Source of the DNA: a virus
Reading direction: 5' to 3' (one strand)
IMG/VR virus record: IMGVR_UViG_3300037575_000058
Span: 1-34,971 of that record
DNA length: 34,971 bases
Shown here: positions 17,237-32,642 of the stretch, one piece after another
Numbering within the stretch: position 1 is the first letter of the stretch
How the letters are laid out: each line of letters opens with the position of its first letter
Made by a program: the position numbers and the translations under genes
Notes under the pieces: generated by a model
The model's database searches: none
The model's input: the letters and a program-made list of their open reading frames with translations, nothing else
What the model was told of the DNA's origin: nothing

Positions 17237-19792
17237 ATGGAAATACTCGGTTTTGATATTTCAGTTAAAAATAAAGGCGGTTTTGCGCTTTTCAAAAATG
17301 ACAACAAAACGGCACGGAAAAATCCGAATATAATTAAACTGGCAGATTCATTTAAAGATAATTCGAGAAAGGATATCGACAAATGGAGAAAGGCTTTACG
17401 AGCAACTACATTTGTAGATCAGCCTCGCTTTAATTTTTACCACGATTTGATTGAAGACTTACTGACCGATGGTCACCTGCAGTCTCAAATTCAATTGCGA
17501 AAACTTTCCACGCTCAATACAGATTATAGGGTAATCAATGTCAATAGCGGTGAGGAAAATCAAGAATTAGACTATATTCTGAACCAACAATGGTTTTTTG
17601 AGTTTTTAGAAAAGTGCTTGGATTCGGTATTGTTTGGAACAACTCTTATAGAATTTCTAGAATTCAACCATGAGAGAGTGGTGTTTAATACATTGCCAAG
17701 ACGAAACATTGTACCAAGTAAAGGATGGATTTTGCCCGACCTAACAAGTGATAAACACATTGACTATCGGGTAGATGAATTCAAACCGTGGTTGATTCAA
17801 ATTGGAGGTGATTACGATCTGGGAGTTCTAAACAACATCGTGCCAAATTTAATTTGGAAGCGGAACGTAGCGCAATCCTGGGCTGAATTCTGCGAAAAGT
17901 TTGGAATGCCACTCATTACAGCGACTACAAATACCACCGATGCAAAAGTAATTGATAACGTGCATAATATGTTGATTACGCTAGGAGAATCGGCTTTGGG
18001 TACATTCCCACCAGGTACGGATATTAAATTCCAAGAAGCCAATAGAACGGATGCTTTTAATGTTTACAAACAGTTTCTACAAACCAATACAGACGAAATA
18101 AGCAAACAACTGGTTGGATCCACCATGTTAAGTGACATGGGTTCTAACCGGTCTCAAACAGAAGTTCACGAACGTTCACTGGACAACAAAATTGCACAGG
18201 CTGACAAACGACTCATCCAGTTCATTGTGAATGATCAGTTGTTTCCACTGCTTAGAATGCACGGGTACAAAATTGACGACAATGACCATTTTGAATTCAA
18301 AACAGCGGAACAAGAAATGGAATTGCCAGCACTCTGGAATATTACAAATGGATTAATAACCAATGGCTATGAGGTACAGCAAGAATGGATCAGTAAAACC
18401 TTTAATATACCCATTGAAGGAAAAAAAAAAGTTCATGGACTGATTAGAGAAAGCGTAATAATCCCTAACAGCAATGCAAAGGCTATGTTCTTTCCAAGCC
18501 AAAGAAATGCGAGATATGACTTTTCGTGTAATTGTGGCAATCATGTTCAGGCTGTAGGCAAGCCAACGCAAGCAGAAATTGACAAGTTCTCTGATCAGCT
18601 TGTTGAATATATTTTTGAAGGAAAAGACACTTTGGGCATTGAGGCCGGACTTATCAGCAGTGAGGCCAATTTACTTTTACAAGCACTAAGGGACAATTTT
18701 AAAACCTTTAATGCTTGGGAAGGTGAAGATCATCTTATGCTTCAAATGATGGAGTATAATTTATTTGAATTCGCTGCGGGTAAAACAGAATCTCGTTTGG
18801 CAGCAATGACAGATTTGCTCTTTGATGAAAACAAAGAAATAAGAAGCTTTTCTTCATTTCGTGCGGAATGCGATAGAATAATGGAAGACTACAACCACAA
18901 TTGGTTAGAAACGGAATACAATCTTTCCATTGCGGTGGGTCAAAACTCAGCGCGTTATGTAGAATTCATGAGCGAAAAGGACACCGTCACTTCTTTTGTG
19001 AAGTACCAAACTGCAGGCGATGATCGAGTAAGGACAGCTCACCAAGCCTTGGATGGAAAAGTATTCAATCTAAATGATCCAGCCGCCATGGACCTATGGC
19101 CACCCAATGGTTTTGGATGCAGATGTGAAATGGTTCAATATTTAGGTGATAAAACAGAAGCTATGAGTGGAGAAAAAGCCAAAAACCTCATGTACTCATC
19201 CGATCCGAAATTTCAAGATTCTCAATTTGAAATCAACCGGGGGAATTTAAAGCAAGTGTTTACCAATGAGCAGTTTTATGCAGACAATAAGAAGATGACC
19301 CATAAGATCAATGACATGACTTTTGATAAATACATGGACTTTAACGGTGACCAATTGCTAAAGCCCTGGGCTGATTTTAAAGAGAATTTAAAGGATATAA
19401 AGCTTGACAAAACCATCACCGGTGAAAACGTGAAAGAACTGTTTAAAAAGGTCAAAGGAAAAGACTATATGGGATTTGAAGATTATGCTGGTAGAAAGAT
19501 GACTATGAGTGAAGATGTCTTTAAGAAGCATACCACAAAGAAATACTTAACTAAAGATCAAAATAGGCAGAAATTATTCCCACACATTAAAGACATATTA
19601 AAAGCTCCAGACGAAGTTTGGTACAATGAACACAAAGTCGGAAAATTTCAAAGTAAGTATTTAAAATTTTATAAAGATAAAGTAATAGTGATTGATTGTG
19701 AATTAAATGAGAAACAAGGATTAAAAATAAACACTTGGTATGAATTAAAGATTGATGAAAAGAATATTAGAAAAGGATTTAGAGTCAAATAA
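17237..19792 (+). CDS. Portal (DUF935) + MuF minor head + C-terminal nuclease-like (PBECR-type) fusion
   Basis: 851 residues. About 1..425 is a DUF935 portal: QPRFNFYHDLIEDLLTDGHL, LGTFPPGTDIKFQEAN, SDMGSNRSQTEVHERS. A short CxC segment (SCNCGNH, about 431) leads to a Mu F-like minor head domain with VRTAHQALDGKVF and PPNGFGCRCEMV (about 597..628). The last hundred residues (about 748..851: DYAGRKMTMSEDVFKKH, LFPHIKDILKAPDEVWY, KYLKFYKDKVIVIDCEL, ending IRKGFRVK) look like the PBECR nuclease domains known to be fused to MuF proteins. If so, the tail may be an effector injected with phage DNA. Portal and F are separate genes in Mu. Confidence 0.82.
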   Translation: MEILGFDISVKNKGGFALFKNDNKTARKNPNIIKLADSFKDNSRKDIDKWRKALRATTFVDQPRFNFYHDLIEDLLTDGHLQSQIQLRKLSTLNTDYRVINVNSGEENQELDYILNQQWFFEFLEKCLDSVLFGTTLIEFLEFNHERVVFNTLPRRNIVPSKGWILPDLTSDKHIDYRVDEFKPWLIQIGGDYDLGVLNNIVPNLIWKRNVAQSWAEFCEKFGMPLITATTNTTDAKVIDNVHNMLITLGESALGTFPPGTDIKFQEANRTDAFNVYKQFLQTNTDEISKQLVGSTMLSDMGSNRSQTEVHERSLDNKIAQADKRLIQFIVNDQLFPLLRMHGYKIDDNDHFEFKTAEQEMELPALWNITNGLITNGYEVQQEWISKTFNIPIEGKKKVHGLIRESVIIPNSNAKAMFFPSQRNARYDFSCNCGNHVQAVGKPTQAEIDKFSDQLVEYIFEGKDTLGIEAGLISSEANLLLQALRDNFKTFNAWEGEDHLMLQMMEYNLFEFAAGKTESRLAAMTDLLFDENKEIRSFSSFRAECDRIMEDYNHNWLETEYNLSIAVGQNSARYVEFMSEKDTVTSFVKYQTAGDDRVRTAHQALDGKVFNLNDPAAMDLWPPNGFGCRCEMVQYLGDKTEAMSGEKAKNLMYSSDPKFQDSQFEINRGNLKQVFTNEQFYADNKKMTHKINDMTFDKYMDFNGDQLLKPWADFKENLKDIKLDKTITGENVKELFKKVKGKDYMGFEDYAGRKMTMSEDVFKKHTTKKYLTKDQNRQKLFPHIKDILKAPDEVWYNEHKVGKFQSKYLKFYKDKVIVIDCELNEKQGLKINTWYELKIDEKNIRKGFRVK

Positions 19793-24794: not shown

Positions 24795-25109
24795 TTAAAA
24801 TTGTTGATGAATTTGATTAGCGACATCCAAAGCCACGTGAGTGGTGTAGCATTGATAAAAGTTCGCGTAAACCATTCGGCAATGCTTTTCAAGTGCAAAT
24901 GCTTCATGGTACTTGAAAGACATCTTGAATTTCTTTGTCGTATGTCTTTTACTGATTTCCTTCTTTTCCAATTGCAAAGACAAGTCAGCGATGATCGACA
25001 TGATAACCTTTTGTTCTTGCGAAAAAATGCCTTGAAAGCTCCCTTCGTTAAACGTTTCGCAAAGCACTTCCAGCGCTACGTGATTTATTTTGATGGTTAT
25101 TTTTTCCAT
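24795..25109 (-). CDS. Early protein of unknown function
   Basis: 104 residues from the ATG at 25109 (MEKITIKINHVALEVL). The upstream part of the frame (to 25151) runs through a recombination-site-like sequence and is unlikely to be coding. The protein is helical, with QKVIMSIIADLSLQLEKKEISKR and KFKMSFKYHEAFALEKHCR. No family is recognised. It seems to belong to the phage core, while the genes directly upstream look like inserted cassettes. Confidence 0.55.
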   Translation of the reverse strand: MEKITIKINHVALEVLCETFNEGSFQGIFSQEQKVIMSIIADLSLQLEKKEISKRHTTKKFKMSFKYHEAFALEKHCRMVYANFYQCYTTHVALDVANQIHQQF

Positions 25110-25142
25110 TATTCGATATTTTGAGGTTGCGTATATCCGGAT

Positions 25143-25149
25143 GTTAGGC
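25143..25149. repeat. Cassette core site GTTAGGC (half attC-like site)
   Basis: On the minus strand GCCTAAC follows the stop of the 80-residue gene by 5 bp and is then followed by ATCCGGATATACGC with no second arm. It has the R-type core pattern of an integron attC site, matching GCCTAAC and GTTAGGC of the next site, but the site appears truncated at the cassette/phage junction. Confidence 0.4.
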
Positions 25150-25154
25150 ACAAT

Positions 25155-25397
25155 TTAACTTAATCGTTCTAAAACTAACTGAAGTGCCTTAATATATTCA
25201 TATTTATCTTTACTTATTTCATCTTCGAGATCAACAGAATGACAACCAGCACTTTCTTCGTGAACGTGTAAGTATCTACCATCTTTTTCTATTATCCAGT
25301 TACGGTACGTGTTCCCAATCTCTTTTTCAATTAGTTTTTGAATCACCTGCTTAGGTTCTACGTCAACTTCTTGACTAAATGTCGCATATATTTTCAT
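25155..25397 (-). CDS. Small cassette-borne protein of unknown function
   Basis: 80 residues from the ATG at 25397 (MKIYATFSQEVDVEP); the frame to 25442 crosses the attC-like site and is rejected. Predicted alpha/beta: FSQEVDVEPKQVIQKLIEKEIG, then RYLHVHEESAG and YIKALQLVLERLS. Not recognised. The gene fills almost the whole space between two recombination-site-like repeats, with 9 bp before its start, the compact packing of an integron gene cassette. Confidence 0.55.
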   Translation of the reverse strand: MKIYATFSQEVDVEPKQVIQKLIEKEIGNTYRNWIIEKDGRYLHVHEESAGCHSVDLEDEISKDKYEYIKALQLVLERLS

Positions 25398-25406
25398 AAA
25401 AACTGT

Positions 25407-25529
25407 GCCTAACAAGGTGTATAAGCAATAGCCGTTAGGCATTTGAACTATTGCAGTTGTTAATAATTACGTTTCTACTTCTAATCAAAATTTATGTTCG
25501 GCTACTGCTCATACACTCGACCGTTATGC
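25407..25529. repeat. attC-like long inverted repeat 1
   Basis: Bounded by GCCTAAC (25407..25413) and GTTATGC (25523..25529), with imperfect arms GTGTATAAGCAATAGCCG (25417..25434) and CGGCTACTGCTCATACAC (25499..25516) that pair at 16 of 18 positions. Inside, an additional GTTAGGC lies at 25434..25440. Core-type ends, long imperfect arms and a variable middle are the build of integron attC sites. No integrase is present in the window. Confidence 0.55.
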
Positions 25530-25530
25530 G

Positions 25531-25956
25531 TCAGCTGAAATCCGTGCGTCTCAAACAAGTTAAAGGAATGAAGTTTGTATTTAGTATCGGCTCTCCAATA
25601 GGTTCATATCCTCTCCATCTTTCAGATGCCCAGGTATATCTTACGTTTTTCGCTATTCCAAATACAAGTCTGCCATCATAATCAACACCACACCAATCAA
25701 CTTCTGGTGGACATTGAAAAAATACACCTTGATTTAATGGCACTGGTTTCTCTTTTACATTTGGGTCGGTCTCTATAAACATTTGTTTAGCAAATCCTAT
25801 TTGTTGAGCCCAAACTTCACTTACCAAATGCTGTTTAGTGTTCTCACATATTTTTAAAAGTTTACCTAATCCCATTCGTAGATTGGCGTTTTTGTTCTGG
25901 AGCTCAATGATAATTTCAGAAGCTCTCTTGTCGCTTGATGTCGTGTCGTTTTTCAT
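25531..25956 (-). CDS. Cassette-borne protein of unknown function
   Basis: 141 residues. The N-terminal half is helical (RASEIIIELQNKNANLRMGLGKLLKICENTKQ) and the C-terminal half has VDWCGVDYDGRLVFGIAKNVRYTWASERW. No family is recognised. The gene sits between two attC-like inverted repeats, with its stop about 1 bp from one of them. Its neighbours on both sides have the same arrangement, so it probably arrived as a cassette and not as a phage core gene. Confidence 0.6.
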   Translation of the reverse strand: MKNDTTSSDKRASEIIIELQNKNANLRMGLGKLLKICENTKQHLVSEVWAQQIGFAKQMFIETDPNVKEKPVPLNQGVFFQCPPEVDWCGVDYDGRLVFGIAKNVRYTWASERWRGYEPIGEPILNTNFIPLTCLRRTDFS

Positions 25957-26001
25957 TTTACAAAAATTTAATTATTAATATTTCATTGTTAAAAGCCGAA
26001 C

Positions 26002-26099
26002 GCATAACACGGCATATAGTTAATGCGCCAAGTTAAGTTAGTGCTTTAGTTTAAGTTTCGGAATGGGCGCACTAACCATATACCCATTCCGTTGTAGGC
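26002..26099. repeat. attC-like long inverted repeat 2
   Basis: Bounded by GCATAAC (26002..26008) and GTTGTAGGC (26091..26099). Arms GGCATATAGTTAATGCGCC (26011..26029) and GGGCGCACTAACCATATACCC (26065..26085) pair imperfectly with a spacer rich in AGTTTAAG-like sequence. The ends match those of repeat 1 in type, not in full sequence, as attC sites do. The 158 bp between the two genes hold nothing else. Confidence 0.55.
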
Positions 26100-26114
26100 A
26101 ATGCAAGAATTAAG

Positions 26115-26375
26115 TTAGTACATATCACCACACTTTTTGCATACATTCCAGCCTGTTCCTGTTCCGTCAGAGTAGTCATGGTCGCACTGTTCGCTTTGCC
26201 CTACAACAGCAGGTATAGAGCAGTTTTTTACTATCTCAAGTAGTAATTTTGCCTCGTTTACTGTAATCAAAATACCTTCTTGGTAATTCCAACTTGCAGC
26301 GTCTAAATCTTCTTCGTTATCTAAGGCAAAATCTATACTGCCTTGTAGTCTTTTTGTAAGTTTTTCTATACTCAT
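26115..26375 (-). CDS. Small protein with C-terminal zinc-ribbon-like end
   Basis: 86 residues. The N-terminal part is helical (MSIEKLTKRLQGSIDFALDNEEDLDAAS) and ends in CDHDYSDGTGTGWNVCKKCGDMY, where Cys, His and the CKKC pair can bind zinc. No family is recognised. It is the outermost of three small genes linked to attC-like repeats. Upstream, CGCTAACGTGATG (26433..26421, minus) looks like another degenerate core site. Confidence 0.55.
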   Translation of the reverse strand: MSIEKLTKRLQGSIDFALDNEEDLDAASWNYQEGILITVNEAKLLLEIVKNCSIPAVVGQSEQCDHDYSDGTGTGWNVCKKCGDMY

Positions 26376-26445
26376 AATTTATCGTTATTTAATCCGTAAA
26401 AAACCGACTCCATACCTGCATCACGTTAGCGAAATTTTAAGTTTC

Positions 26446-26662: not shown

Positions 26663-26725
26663 GGGAAGGTGAAACCCAAATTAACACATGAAAAAATTTA
26701 TTACTAACTCACCTTTTTTTTTTGT

Positions 26726-26797
26726 TCCCGAGGCAGGATTCGAACCTGCATTCCAGTCCTTATATTTCTTTGCTATTACCAATTATACGACTCGGGA
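26726..26797 (-). ncRNA. tRNA-like element 1 (degenerate anticodon arm)
   Basis: 72 nt on the minus strand with a perfect 7-bp acceptor stem (TCCCGAG/CTCGGGA) and a perfect 5-bp T stem (GCAGG/CCTGC) with TTCGAAT loop. T8, A14, G18, G19 and A21 are in place, with a 3-bp D stem, and ACA follows the acceptor. Positions 27..43 form no anticodon stem and U33 is absent, so it is probably not a decoding tRNA. It could be a tRNA mimic, an RNase P/Z target or a decayed tRNA. It lies 7 bp behind an early gene and about 100 nt before the next. Confidence 0.6.
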
Positions 26798-29538: not shown

Positions 29539-30468
29539 TTACTGTAGTTTTATCTTTTCTCTAATTATCACTCGTTTTAATCGACGTAAATCATCAATTA
29601 CCTTCACACTGGTAACTTCTTTGGGTCCTACTGGAATGTCTTTGTAGACAGGCTTTAAACTCTCAAAGATTTCTTTCTGGAGTGTCGTGTCCAAAACTCC
29701 ATTGATAGCGCAAATTTTGCGGACACAATCCATGGTAGCACCCATCAATCCAATGTAAGCCCGACCAAATCGACTCTCTAATTCATCAAATCCTAACCGT
29801 CGTAATCGAACGCCTCGGATTATTTTTTGCTCCAAGTGTGGCGTTCCTGCTATGATGAGACTCATTTCATCTTCACACTCATTGAATAAGTGAATAAACC
29901 AGCGCAAAGAAGATTCTTTGAGCTTGTCAGCCTCATCAATTATCAATAAGGGTTTTTGAGTGCTTCTCTTTTTGAAAAAATTCACGACTTTCATTCCTAA
30001 CTGATCTACTTTTGTGTAGCTTTTACCCGTATCTATGCCCAATGTGGTGCATAACTCCAATAGAAAGTCACGCTTTGCCCACTCTCTACTGCATATATAG
30101 AACACAGATTCGTTGGAATGTTCCTGGGCAAAGGTTTTCAAACTTGCGCTTTTCCCAATCCCCGCCTTGTCCGCTATAATCATAAATAAACTGTGGGCTT
30201 TAGCATCTGTACAGATGTTTGCTACTTTACGGTAATTGATGGTTTCAGCTATCTGCCAGCTTGCAGAACTGTACCCAAGCGCGTGTCCTACTTTTAGCCA
30301 CATTTCACCCGTAATTAACGTCCAATTCCCTTTTACCATTTGCGTAATGGTGGCTCCGGATACATCTGCCTTGGTTGCAACCTTGGCGTAACTGCCTAGC
30401 CTCTTTTTTTCTGTATGAATGTGCTGGACAATGGTTTGTTTTTGTAAATTTGTCATATCTAAAATCAT
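29539..30468 (-). CDS. MuB-like transposition target ATPase
   Basis: 309 residues. N-terminal HTH (YAKVATKADVSGATITQMVKG, about 27..47), Walker A DKAGIGKS (100..107), Walker B LLIIDEAD (174..181) and a sensor-like IIAGTP (205..210). This is the AAA+ MuB family, which coats target DNA, stimulates MuA and gives target immunity. It is 2 bp downstream of the transposase gene. The start could also be Met5 (30456). Confidence 0.9.
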   Translation of the reverse strand: MILDMTNLQKQTIVQHIHTEKKRLGSYAKVATKADVSGATITQMVKGNWTLITGEMWLKVGHALGYSSASWQIAETINYRKVANICTDAKAHSLFMIIADKAGIGKSASLKTFAQEHSNESVFYICSREWAKRDFLLELCTTLGIDTGKSYTKVDQLGMKVVNFFKKRSTQKPLLIIDEADKLKESSLRWFIHLFNECEDEMSLIIAGTPHLEQKIIRGVRLRRLGFDELESRFGRAYIGLMGATMDCVRKICAINGVLDTTLQKEIFESLKPVYKDIPVGPKEVTSVKVIDDLRRLKRVIIREKIKLQ

Positions 30469-30470
30469 TT

Positions 30471-32567
30471 TTAAAATTCGTTGTGAATATTGTTTAAGAC
30501 AGCGTTCGCAATGTCATCCGGGGTATAGTCTGCTCCGGATGCTTTTTTAAGTGGAATTTGAGCCGTCTCATTCATGTAATTTTCTTCAAATTGATTGGCT
30601 TCTTTCTTTTGGGTAAAAGGTCCCATCAGTAAAGACTCTTCGCCTATCATTTCCTCTAGTTTGTTTTCTTTATGAACTTTGATTTCCAAGGCTCGTTTTT
30701 TAGCCTCTGCCATTTTTCCGTACTCTTTATTGGGTCCTGAAAGTTGTGGACGATCAAACAATTGCGCGCTGCATAGAAATGACAGTAATTGGTCGTGTTT
30801 TTTCCATAAAAACACTTCTGATAAGTCATCCAAATTATAGCTTACAACTACTTTTTGGTTGAATTGATTGGCAATGATCCCAAAGTATTCGGACGGAACC
30901 ATGTAATCAAAAGGAACGCCTACAATCTCAGTAGTAAATTGACCATCATTTCGAAGCGTTAGTTCTTTTTTCAAGTCAAACAGCATGGAAATACGCTGTT
31001 TATCTGCCCATATTACATTTGGCTTTTCGCTTTCCTCATGCAATTGAGCAGGCGTTTTATCTATTTTACTATGCTTTCTTGAGTACCAGTTAAGCGGTGT
31101 AGTTCTATACTTCTCTATGGTAATGCTCGCTGATTCTACGGCTTTCTCTAAATTCCAACCTTCCTTTTTGGCTTCTTTTCTGACTCTTGCTAAATACTCT
31201 GCACTACGGTGAGCGTATGAGGATCTGGATTTAATTCCTTCACCATAGAAATATTTGGTTTCCATCATGAATACGGATTGAAGGGTGCGGAACCAACGCT
31301 CTAACTTTGCTTTTTGGTTTGCGTTATGGCTAAAATCTACACGAACTCCTAACGTTTCCATTCGTGTAAATAAATCTTTCAATTGGGGCGTATTGTGTCC
31401 CGGGAATCTATCAGTAATCAGTTCGTACGGTAAATAACCTGCATTTTCAACGGCCATTTTCATCGCTTGATGATACACAGCATGGTTTTCTGAATAGTCA
31501 AAACTATAACCCAATACATCTCCACTGTGAACGTCACGTATAGCGACTACAAATAGATGACGATCTTTCCCATCTTCTGCAGTATGTGCAATGACATTGT
31601 ACCGAGTGGCATCCATTTCCCAACAGTCACCTGCTGAAATTGCATTTGCCGTGGGTATATATCCTTTGAACATCTGTGATTTACTGTTACCTGATCCATA
31701 TCGTTTCTCACCGGTTAAATACTGCGTGATCGGTTGCTCAAAAATAGAAGTGCCAAACCATCTTCTTGACGGGGTTTTCTTGCCTGTTAATTGACACATT
31801 TCTTTGACTTTGCGAATGATAAATTCGTTGCTAAAGTTTGCGTCCATACTGCGCAACTGCATAGCCCAACTAAACACCTCAAAATCTGTATAGAGTTCTG
31901 CGTTTGCATTGCCTACTCTGGGTAGGTAAATTAAACCTACAATGCTGTTGCCCGGTTTTTCTAACTCCACCATCTTTTCTTTTAATCGAATAGGGTGATG
32001 GGGTATATATTGCATGTCCATTTTCTTTAAAATTGGACTTAGATCGTTATAAATTTGATTGGCCGTTCCTGGATAGTCGTCTTTTTCATCCAAAATAAAA
32101 TCTAGTACTGCACACGCTTTTGCAAGTGCTATTTGCTGCGGTGGAAGTGTCTCTGAATAGAAAGAGAGATAGTTCTTATAAACCTTGTTTAAATGCTGTT
32201 TAAACCGCTGCTCTATTTGAGTCTCTTCTAAATTTCTACACACATATTGCCAGTGCTCTATTAGTGCAGCTTCGTCACCAAAACGGCTACGGTATCTAGT
32301 AGGTGCCTTGTCAGGAATATTCGCAAGACAGTAATAATATTCGGACTGGATCCGAGCCCACCGCCAACTTTTGCCACTGTCTGGCATATAGTCCTTGGCT
32401 TTGGCTAAATCACATTCGCGAATTGATTTTTTGTATAATGGACGTGCCTTTTTCCATAAATAAGATTCAGTAACTCCACACAGCTCTACCAGTAGCCTCT
32501 GGGCTATCCAAGTGGACTCTACGCCGTTGGCTTTTCTGATGATTATGTCTGTGGGTTGTAAATTCAT
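30471..32567 (-). CDS. MuA-like DDE transposase
   Basis: 698 residues from the ATG at 32567 (MNLQPTDIIIRK). A GTG at 32627 would add 20 residues read through a conserved hairpin, so the ATG is preferred. An N-terminal DNA-binding part (about 1..230) precedes the RNase H core with Asp319 in DCWEMDATRYN, Asp386 in YELITDRFPGHN and Glu423 in NQKAKLERWFRTLQ. The C-terminus is charged and helical, as expected for contacts with MuB. It cuts and joins the element ends, both for integration and for replicative transposition. Confidence 0.93.
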   Translation of the reverse strand: MNLQPTDIIIRKANGVESTWIAQRLLVELCGVTESYLWKKARPLYKKSIRECDLAKAKDYMPDSGKSWRWARIQSEYYYCLANIPDKAPTRYRSRFGDEAALIEHWQYVCRNLEETQIEQRFKQHLNKVYKNYLSFYSETLPPQQIALAKACAVLDFILDEKDDYPGTANQIYNDLSPILKKMDMQYIPHHPIRLKEKMVELEKPGNSIVGLIYLPRVGNANAELYTDFEVFSWAMQLRSMDANFSNEFIIRKVKEMCQLTGKKTPSRRWFGTSIFEQPITQYLTGEKRYGSGNSKSQMFKGYIPTANAISAGDCWEMDATRYNVIAHTAEDGKDRHLFVVAIRDVHSGDVLGYSFDYSENHAVYHQAMKMAVENAGYLPYELITDRFPGHNTPQLKDLFTRMETLGVRVDFSHNANQKAKLERWFRTLQSVFMMETKYFYGEGIKSRSSYAHRSAEYLARVRKEAKKEGWNLEKAVESASITIEKYRTTPLNWYSRKHSKIDKTPAQLHEESEKPNVIWADKQRISMLFDLKKELTLRNDGQFTTEIVGVPFDYMVPSEYFGIIANQFNQKVVVSYNLDDLSEVFLWKKHDQLLSFLCSAQLFDRPQLSGPNKEYGKMAEAKKRALEIKVHKENKLEEMIGEESLLMGPFTQKKEANQFEENYMNETAQIPLKKASGADYTPDDIANAVLNNIHNEF

Positions 32568-32587
32568 TTTTCCTATTTTATAAAAAT

Positions 32588-32608
32588 GCTTGTCTTTCCA
32601 AGCTGTCA
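32588..32608 (-). promoter_or_regulatory. Conserved hairpin before the transposase gene
   Basis: Minus strand GCTTG-GAAAGA-CAAGC followed by ATTTTTATAAAA, ending 20 nt before the transposase ATG, with TGACA just upstream. It matches the hairpin at 26642..26662 with two paired changes. It resembles an intrinsic terminator and may attenuate transposase expression. Confidence 0.65.
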
Positions 32609-32642
32609 AGCGGGCGTTATCCTTCACGCTGTGCCATCTTTG

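Follow-up and report, generated by a model that had tools for sequence, protein, structure and literature searches.

Classical Xer proteins recombine dif sites and are not known to serve cassette arrays. Among the closest described counterparts of the arrays reported here are the IntI/attC integrons, in which small genes are arrayed between imperfect hairpins with RYYYAAC/GTTRRRY ends, the boxes belonging to one gene are complementary, and a tyrosine recombinase stands at one end together with a boundary site. Classical integrons are reported to recombine mainly the bottom strand (PMC9892861). Phage CALINs are already in print (Qi et al. 2023, PMC9892861); according to the accessible text of that report, they hold attC-like sites and cassettes without an integrase, include methyltransferase cassettes and a Polaribacter phage, and had been detected by means of IntI-type attC models; of six sites tested, IntI1 could use five. 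By the IntegronFinder definition, a CALIN has at least two attC sites recognised by the published attC model and lacks a nearby integrase. In Treponema integrons, as far as the accessible account goes (PMC3607928), the integrase and the cassette genes are co-directional, intI reading toward attI with the cassettes after it.

The phage arrays that we describe share the listed features of IntI/attC integrons, the boundary site being a candidate one, but their recombinase lacks the IntI insertion and belongs to another clade, their sites lie ahead of the genes they accompany, their genes read toward the recombinase, it is the coding strand that stays foldable, G.T wobbles mostly stand in place of fixed bulges, and the carriers are large phages. 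The published phage CALINs have methyltransferase cassettes in common with them and resemble the window patch in lacking an integrase, whereas the recombinase of the present phage family is not described in the accessible text of that report (PMC9892861). Compared with Treponema, the phage arrays have the reverse order, with cassettes first and the recombinase last. The nearest recombinases are the XerA proteins of Bacteroidota plasmids (NF040815), which are 40-49% identical to the phage protein, and two of these plasmids have the same upstream site layout; the phage proteins nevertheless score 174-195 bits, below the family cut-off of 220. In the literature searched, with preprints and most subscription journals outside its scope, we came across no account of large phages with a cassette system that is linked to a recombinase other than IntI.

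The window, meaning the whole stretch of DNA analysed, is an IMG/VR virus record of 34,971 bases. Its early operon includes genes for a DDE transposase and for an AAA transposition protein, as expected of a Mu-like carrier (Table 1). Since the rve match of the transposase falls below the Pfam cut-off, this placement depends on the AAA neighbour and on relatives in 17 viral loci. Distant ones occur in Flavobacterium and Porphyromonas phages. The cassette patch sits within the early operon and consists of three small genes, three long hairpin sites and one boundary half site, all on the minus strand. No recombinase is encoded in the window, a TIGR02249 search included. Just upstream of the patch lies a tRNA (26725-26797, minus strand; 34.7 bits with Rfam, without an ARAGORN match), which is the only Rfam match in the window.

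Table 1. Features of the cassette patch and of the carrier phage in the window
Feature	Position	Strand	Remarks
Mu-like transposase	30471-32627	-	Pfam rve match weak, below cut-off
AAA transposition protein	29539-30468	-	Pfam AAA_22
Site 3	26205..26427	-	223 nt; AAC at 26427, GTT ending 26205; read from sequence
Cassette 3 gene	26115..26375	-	86 aa
Site 2	25997..26101 (AAC-GTT 26006-26093; with boxes 26002-26099)	-	Covariance model 55 bits, E 5.3e-9
Cassette 2 gene	25531..25956	-	141 aa; relatives in 10 viral loci
Site 1	25402..25533 (AAC-GTT 25411-25525; with boxes 25407-25529)	-	Covariance model 71.1 bits, E 3.7e-12
Cassette 1 gene	25155..25397	-	80 aa; flanks GTTAGGCACAGTTT and AAATTGTGCCTAAC
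Array boundary	25129..25149	-	GCCTAAC-ATCCGGATATACGC; GCCTAAC at 25149-25143, after gene 1
Phage operon gene beyond the far side of the array	24795..25110	-	Distant homologues in 5/17 related Mu-like phage loci

The original prediction, made from the letters alone, was of an attC array without integrase, composed of two full inverted repeats, two half sites and three tightly packed genes on one strand inside a transposable phage. Its physical elements held up well. Sites 1 and 2 lie where the repeats had been placed, both on the minus strand, and they are above chance: a covariance model built without the window recovered both (Table 1), and the next match in the window reached 16 bits (E 0.25). 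The half site at 25143-25149 is real; it flanks gene 1 together with 25400-25414 in a 15-nt inverted repeat that is 93% complementary, and the half site at 26421-26433 (AACGTGATGCAGGTATGGAG) turned out to be the 5' arm of a third site. The 3' arm of this site (CTCTATACCTGCTGTT, reading CTCTATACCTGC-TGTT) lies within gene 3, and the start codon of gene 3 is thus found in the hairpin loop. The covariance model did not recover site 3 as a whole in the window; its box GTTGTAGG matches CCTACAAC at the end of the same cassette. Site 2 (structural scan score 32) has the deviant box CTACAAC in an array whose hairpins otherwise end in the RYYYAAC/GTTRRRY form. All three genes are on the minus strand and take up the intervals between the sites.

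The window cassette genes gave no useful family match in Pfam or PHROGs. A single, weak relative of gene 1 was seen in viral contigs. The two halves of the cassette 2 protein each match a separate small phage protein, and no relative of this gene was found in the plasmid or phage collections. At two loci (L002 7924-7977, L003 6419-6472) the 5' half of the site-1 repeat stands ahead of relatives of its C-terminal half, with no 3' half seen. Gene 3 has relatives in three viral loci, and that in phage locus L011 lies between covariance-model matches at 499-622 and 833-892. The prediction was to be abandoned if covariance models rejected the repeats and the genes always accompanied phage core genes; instead, the repeats fit the model, and relatives of the genes or sites occur outside the window phage.

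The repeats are members of a phage family whose carriers are large and partly T4-like. A degenerate pattern of the site 1 3' arm was present in 33 viral contigs and one genome contig, with a chance expectation, estimated from pattern length, of far less than one in either collection. Site 1 is itself a member of this family (profile 117 bits); the repeats are near-identical over about 120 bp, unlike the preceding gene, and are followed by an ATG within about 10-17 nt. A tyrosine recombinase (TIGR02249 E 1e-27 to 1e-30) is also encoded in six of the 33 viral records; in five it follows the repeat in the same orientation at a distance of up to about 2 kb, and in the sixth, G013, it lies about 23 kb off. 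The latter record also has an N-terminal recombinase fragment (G013:C1:16788-16907, profile 2-41) about 1 kb from the repeat at 17950-18069 and far from the intact copy, which looks like a decayed array end. The repeat-bearing phages include T4-like ones, one with thymidylate synthase and several with gp23. The sole genome contig (L069 1433-1499; RFNS01000306.1) is short, comes from a metagenome bin labelled Alphaproteobacteria, and may be a stray phage contig.

Sites of this kind occur in arrays linked to a recombinase. A search with five recombinases yielded 82 viral loci, 80 of which were taken in, and these were scanned for AACG, a stem and TGTT up to 5 kb upstream of the recombinase. The scan found 301 sites upstream on the same strand. 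The opposite strand gave 4, the downstream side 3 and 0, and shuffled upstream sequence 1. At least one upstream site was present in 68 of the 80 loci; among the remaining 12, six had less than 250 nt upstream and four had 431-1215 nt, while L103 had 5 kb and L162, which is only 23% identical, 4.9 kb. Removal of seven duplicate loci and L162 left 296 unique sites in 62 of 72 loci. Because the scan required AACG...TGTT, those letters are assumed rather than discovered in the 296 sites, as well as in the 72 sites of the covariance model. The cassette genes are oriented toward the recombinase gene, which comes last, and the longest ORF runs along the array direction in 198 of 217 units. Ahead of the recombinase leader lies a boundary, AAC-TATNATATAT, a candidate for the attI position (AACTATNATATAT) that is exact in 34 of the 77 phage loci with enough sequence, with variants in most others by eye; the window shows resemblance only.

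The covariance model, R1, was built from 72 recombinase-linked phage sites of similar length, with the window sites left out. Two sites of the window fit it, and the third agrees by sequence only. Moreover, R1 matched four Bacteroidota plasmids (L167, L168, L178, L181), phage L011, and 42 of 43 large records (43 of the 80 recombinase loci, taken as whole records), with a maximum of 29 matches per record; a gp23 match was present in 19 of these 43 (16 above cut-off). There was no R1 match at E <=1 in 21 loci of related phages and neighbours, and L179 and L180, both of them IntI integron loci, gave none either. An early, rough attC scan that was strict on the boxes had picked up site 1 but not site 2, and neither the surroundings of cassette-gene relatives nor the related phages yielded a convincing match. 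In view of the phage repeat family, the recombinase linkage and the model matches, we discarded the idea that the patch consists of ordinary phage genes and repeats that arose by chance. Our results strongly favor the interpretation that the patch is an array of three cassettes, without a recombinase, from an integron-like system at home in large phages. Judging from nearest relatives, the home phages are probably those of Bacteroidota. The predicted cassette array without recombinase in a Mu-like phage stands, with related cassettes moving between phages. That it is of the IntI type is not supported; its sites fit a family of phage sites on which a XerA-type enzyme would act.

A less likely alternative, in our judgement, is that the large-phage system is real but that the window copy, acquired through homologous or illegitimate recombination, no longer functions. 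Such a copy would fit a window without a recombinase, the mixed site types, and the absence of sites from the related phage loci examined. It fits less well with the boundary after cassette 1, which by eye is similar to AAC-TACTGGATATCC, the boundary next to the recombinase in an array on a Bacteroidota plasmid, or with the finding that both outer ends of the patch fall at AAC.

The phage recombinase, of about 262-269 aa, has SAM-like and catalytic domains, and its best family fit is NF040815 (XerA/integron integrase). TIGR02249 gave 146-158 bits versus a cut-off of 265, and IntI4 aligned in two pieces around a gap of about 48 residues, a region of about 81 residues in IntI4 and about 33 in the phage protein. 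In a tree with some long branches, rooted for drawing only, the phage proteins group with Bacteroidota phage and plasmid recombinases, and IntI forms a separate clade. The predicted structure (pLDDT 87) has XerA as its closest neighbour (Z 21.2), followed by XerH (18.5), XerA-like 4a8e (18.2) and IntI4 (17.5). Taken from profiles, phylogeny and a predicted fold, the enzyme is best regarded as a XerA-type tyrosine recombinase, not IntI. In cultured phage and plasmid records (for plasmids, among the matches listed), none had a recombinase more than 60% identical to the phage family.

On the plasmid of Flagellimonas marinaquae (L168 2770-5678; NZ_CP092416.1), one of the two with the same site layout, sites lie upstream of a xerA 49% identical to the phage recombinase. 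Beside these sites stand erm(F) and, in the opposite orientation, a gene similar to those for dihydrofolate reductase, and resistance genes may therefore ride in such cassettes in Bacteroidota. An Acinetobacter plasmid (L175 2555-3220; NZ_CP104735.1) encodes a recombinase 48% identical to the phage family beside tet(X3); the structural scan saw no site at this locus.

The cassettes are exchanged as units bounded by AAC. We compared blocks of at least 200 nt shared between different loci (55 in total, locus pairs sharing more than 3 kb dropped, pairs not independent), since at a looser threshold of about 60% identity the noise obscured where blocks end. Of the untruncated block starts 28 of 53, and of the untruncated ends 8 of 53, lay no more than 8 nt from an AAC, where about 1% would be expected; at GTT there were no starts and one end. 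The exchanged blocks span the AAC ahead of a site to the next AAC. One 419-nt cassette is 100% identical between L063 and L108, and others are shared by L053/L060 (95%) and L084/L136 (83%). In a sample of 26 matches chosen by loop alone, one of which gave no R', the R' box was GTTAGGC in 22 of 25 and the leader was of few types, whereas R'' varied. From the AAC block boundaries, together with constant R' and varied R'', it follows that the site travels with the gene behind it. By this linkage rule, site 2 would be part of cassette 2. These results should be read beside two other comparisons: a first linkage test was weak (among 406 similar-stem pairs the right flank was alike in 41 and the left in 12, with mean identities nearly equal), and a gene-homology test offered only five pairs, one of which, L116/L130, has the gene in common but neither site. 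The boxes flanking one gene, after site n and before site n+1, are complementary at 5.77 of 8 positions (n=219; 48% with >=7), whereas the two boxes of a single site agree at 3.22 and randomly paired boxes at 3.06; for the last gene and the boundary site the value is 5.85 of 8 (n=54). With AAC cassette boundaries and complementary gene-flanking boxes, the system appears to work like an integron.

The original prediction had each gene followed by its attC, and this layout was dropped on the shared cassettes, the AAC block boundaries and the R'/R'' pattern: a cassette's site precedes its gene. Neither an integrase with the catalytic-domain insertion (the window has none, and the phage recombinase is short of it) nor the order of gene and then its attC is found here. 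Since the patch thus lacks two defining properties of IntI integrons, we file it as a variant distinct from them. We regard it as improbable that the patch is a classical CALIN, i.e. bacterial IntI-type cassettes in a phage, with attC behind the gene and bottom-strand recombination. The R boxes do have the classical RYYYAAC/GTTRRRY form, and published phage CALINs with IntI1-active sites would provide a precedent (PMC9892861), but the recombinase of the family is not IntI by score, gap and clade, the site moves with the following gene, and R1 misses both IntI integron loci.

The fold is conserved in a strand-specific manner. Single-strand folding of the window repeats, which the prediction had proposed, gave weak evidence (z -1.9 and -2.1). 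Across the 72 sites of similar length, 16 of 17 stem pairs show compensatory changes on both sides. Under a scoring that treats transitions alike, 520 G.T versus 92 A.C pairs were counted on the coding strand of the 296 unique sites, with G.T peaks at +12 (25%) and at +17/+18 (43% and 35%) and almost no A.C there; a minority of sites have a bulged T at +13 to +17, and G.T wobbles predominate. This excess indicates that the coding strand is kept foldable, with two soft spots at a fixed distance from AAC. An ORF starts in the loop of 114 of the 296 sites and continues across the 3' arm and GTT over some 20 codons at least, compared with 12 in the antisense control; 82 of these 114 ORFs have GTT in frame. 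A start codon in the loop ties the site to the following gene, and cassette 3 of the window has this form. Recurrent N-termini, e.g. MSKEMREHIDNF...LNISDV, stand ahead of unrelated protein bodies. Hairpin-encoded leader families ending in LNISDV, LHISDV and LGIGAV were seen at L083-L160. That the repeats are RNA hairpins for processing, stability or translation control, spread by ordinary phage mosaicism, is very improbable, for although an RNA function would also require a foldable sense strand, and would suit start codons in loops and sites between genes of one direction, it leaves the recombinase at array ends, the gene-end complementarity and the AAC exchange boundaries unexplained. The hairpins could have a second role as RNA besides recombination.

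As for cargo, 150 of 269 cassette ORFs were scanned. Pfam matched 11 of the 150, including six DNA methyltransferases and one Lar restriction alleviation protein, and PADLOC and PHROGs also point to methyltransferases. The recognisable cassettes are thus mostly DNA methyltransferases. We infer that the cassette genes probably benefit the phage at an early stage of infection.

According to the mechanism that we propose, the unit in gene direction would be C|G-stem-loop-stem-T-GTTRNNY-leader-gene-RNYYAA|C. The coding strand of the site of ~120 nt would fold into a presumed single-strand substrate, and the XerA-type phage tyrosine recombinase would cut AA|C at the 5' base of the site. The cut end would then be joined to another site or to the boundary AAC beside the recombinase gene, so that a gene would enter or leave together with the site ahead of it, and the cassettes would be read from the phage's own operon. 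Since the window phage is without a recombinase, its cassettes were most likely captured in trans; their source would be a large phage infecting the same cell or an element of the host, and their point of entry an AAC boundary within the early operon. No empty site was found in relatives of the window phage (whose transposases are about 50-60% alike and in which the region differs), and capture in trans is thus a guess.

In conclusion, we think it likely that a second kind of integron exists without IntI, in which a XerA-type recombinase of large phages shuffles units of site and gene via a folded coding strand, the hairpin often providing the start codon and a mobile N-terminal leader, and that transposable phages and Bacteroidota plasmids, some with resistance genes, use the same pool. 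If so, the integron principle, site-specific cassette shuffling via folded DNA, works in phages with another recombinase and a reversed gene orientation, and it would either have arisen twice or be older than IntI. It would provide a concrete mechanism for the swapping of small early genes among phages, including methyltransferases that can blunt restriction, and makes testable a cassette route among large phages, transposable phages and resistance-bearing Bacteroidota plasmids. Viruses thus appear to run an integron-like gene-swapping platform from different parts.
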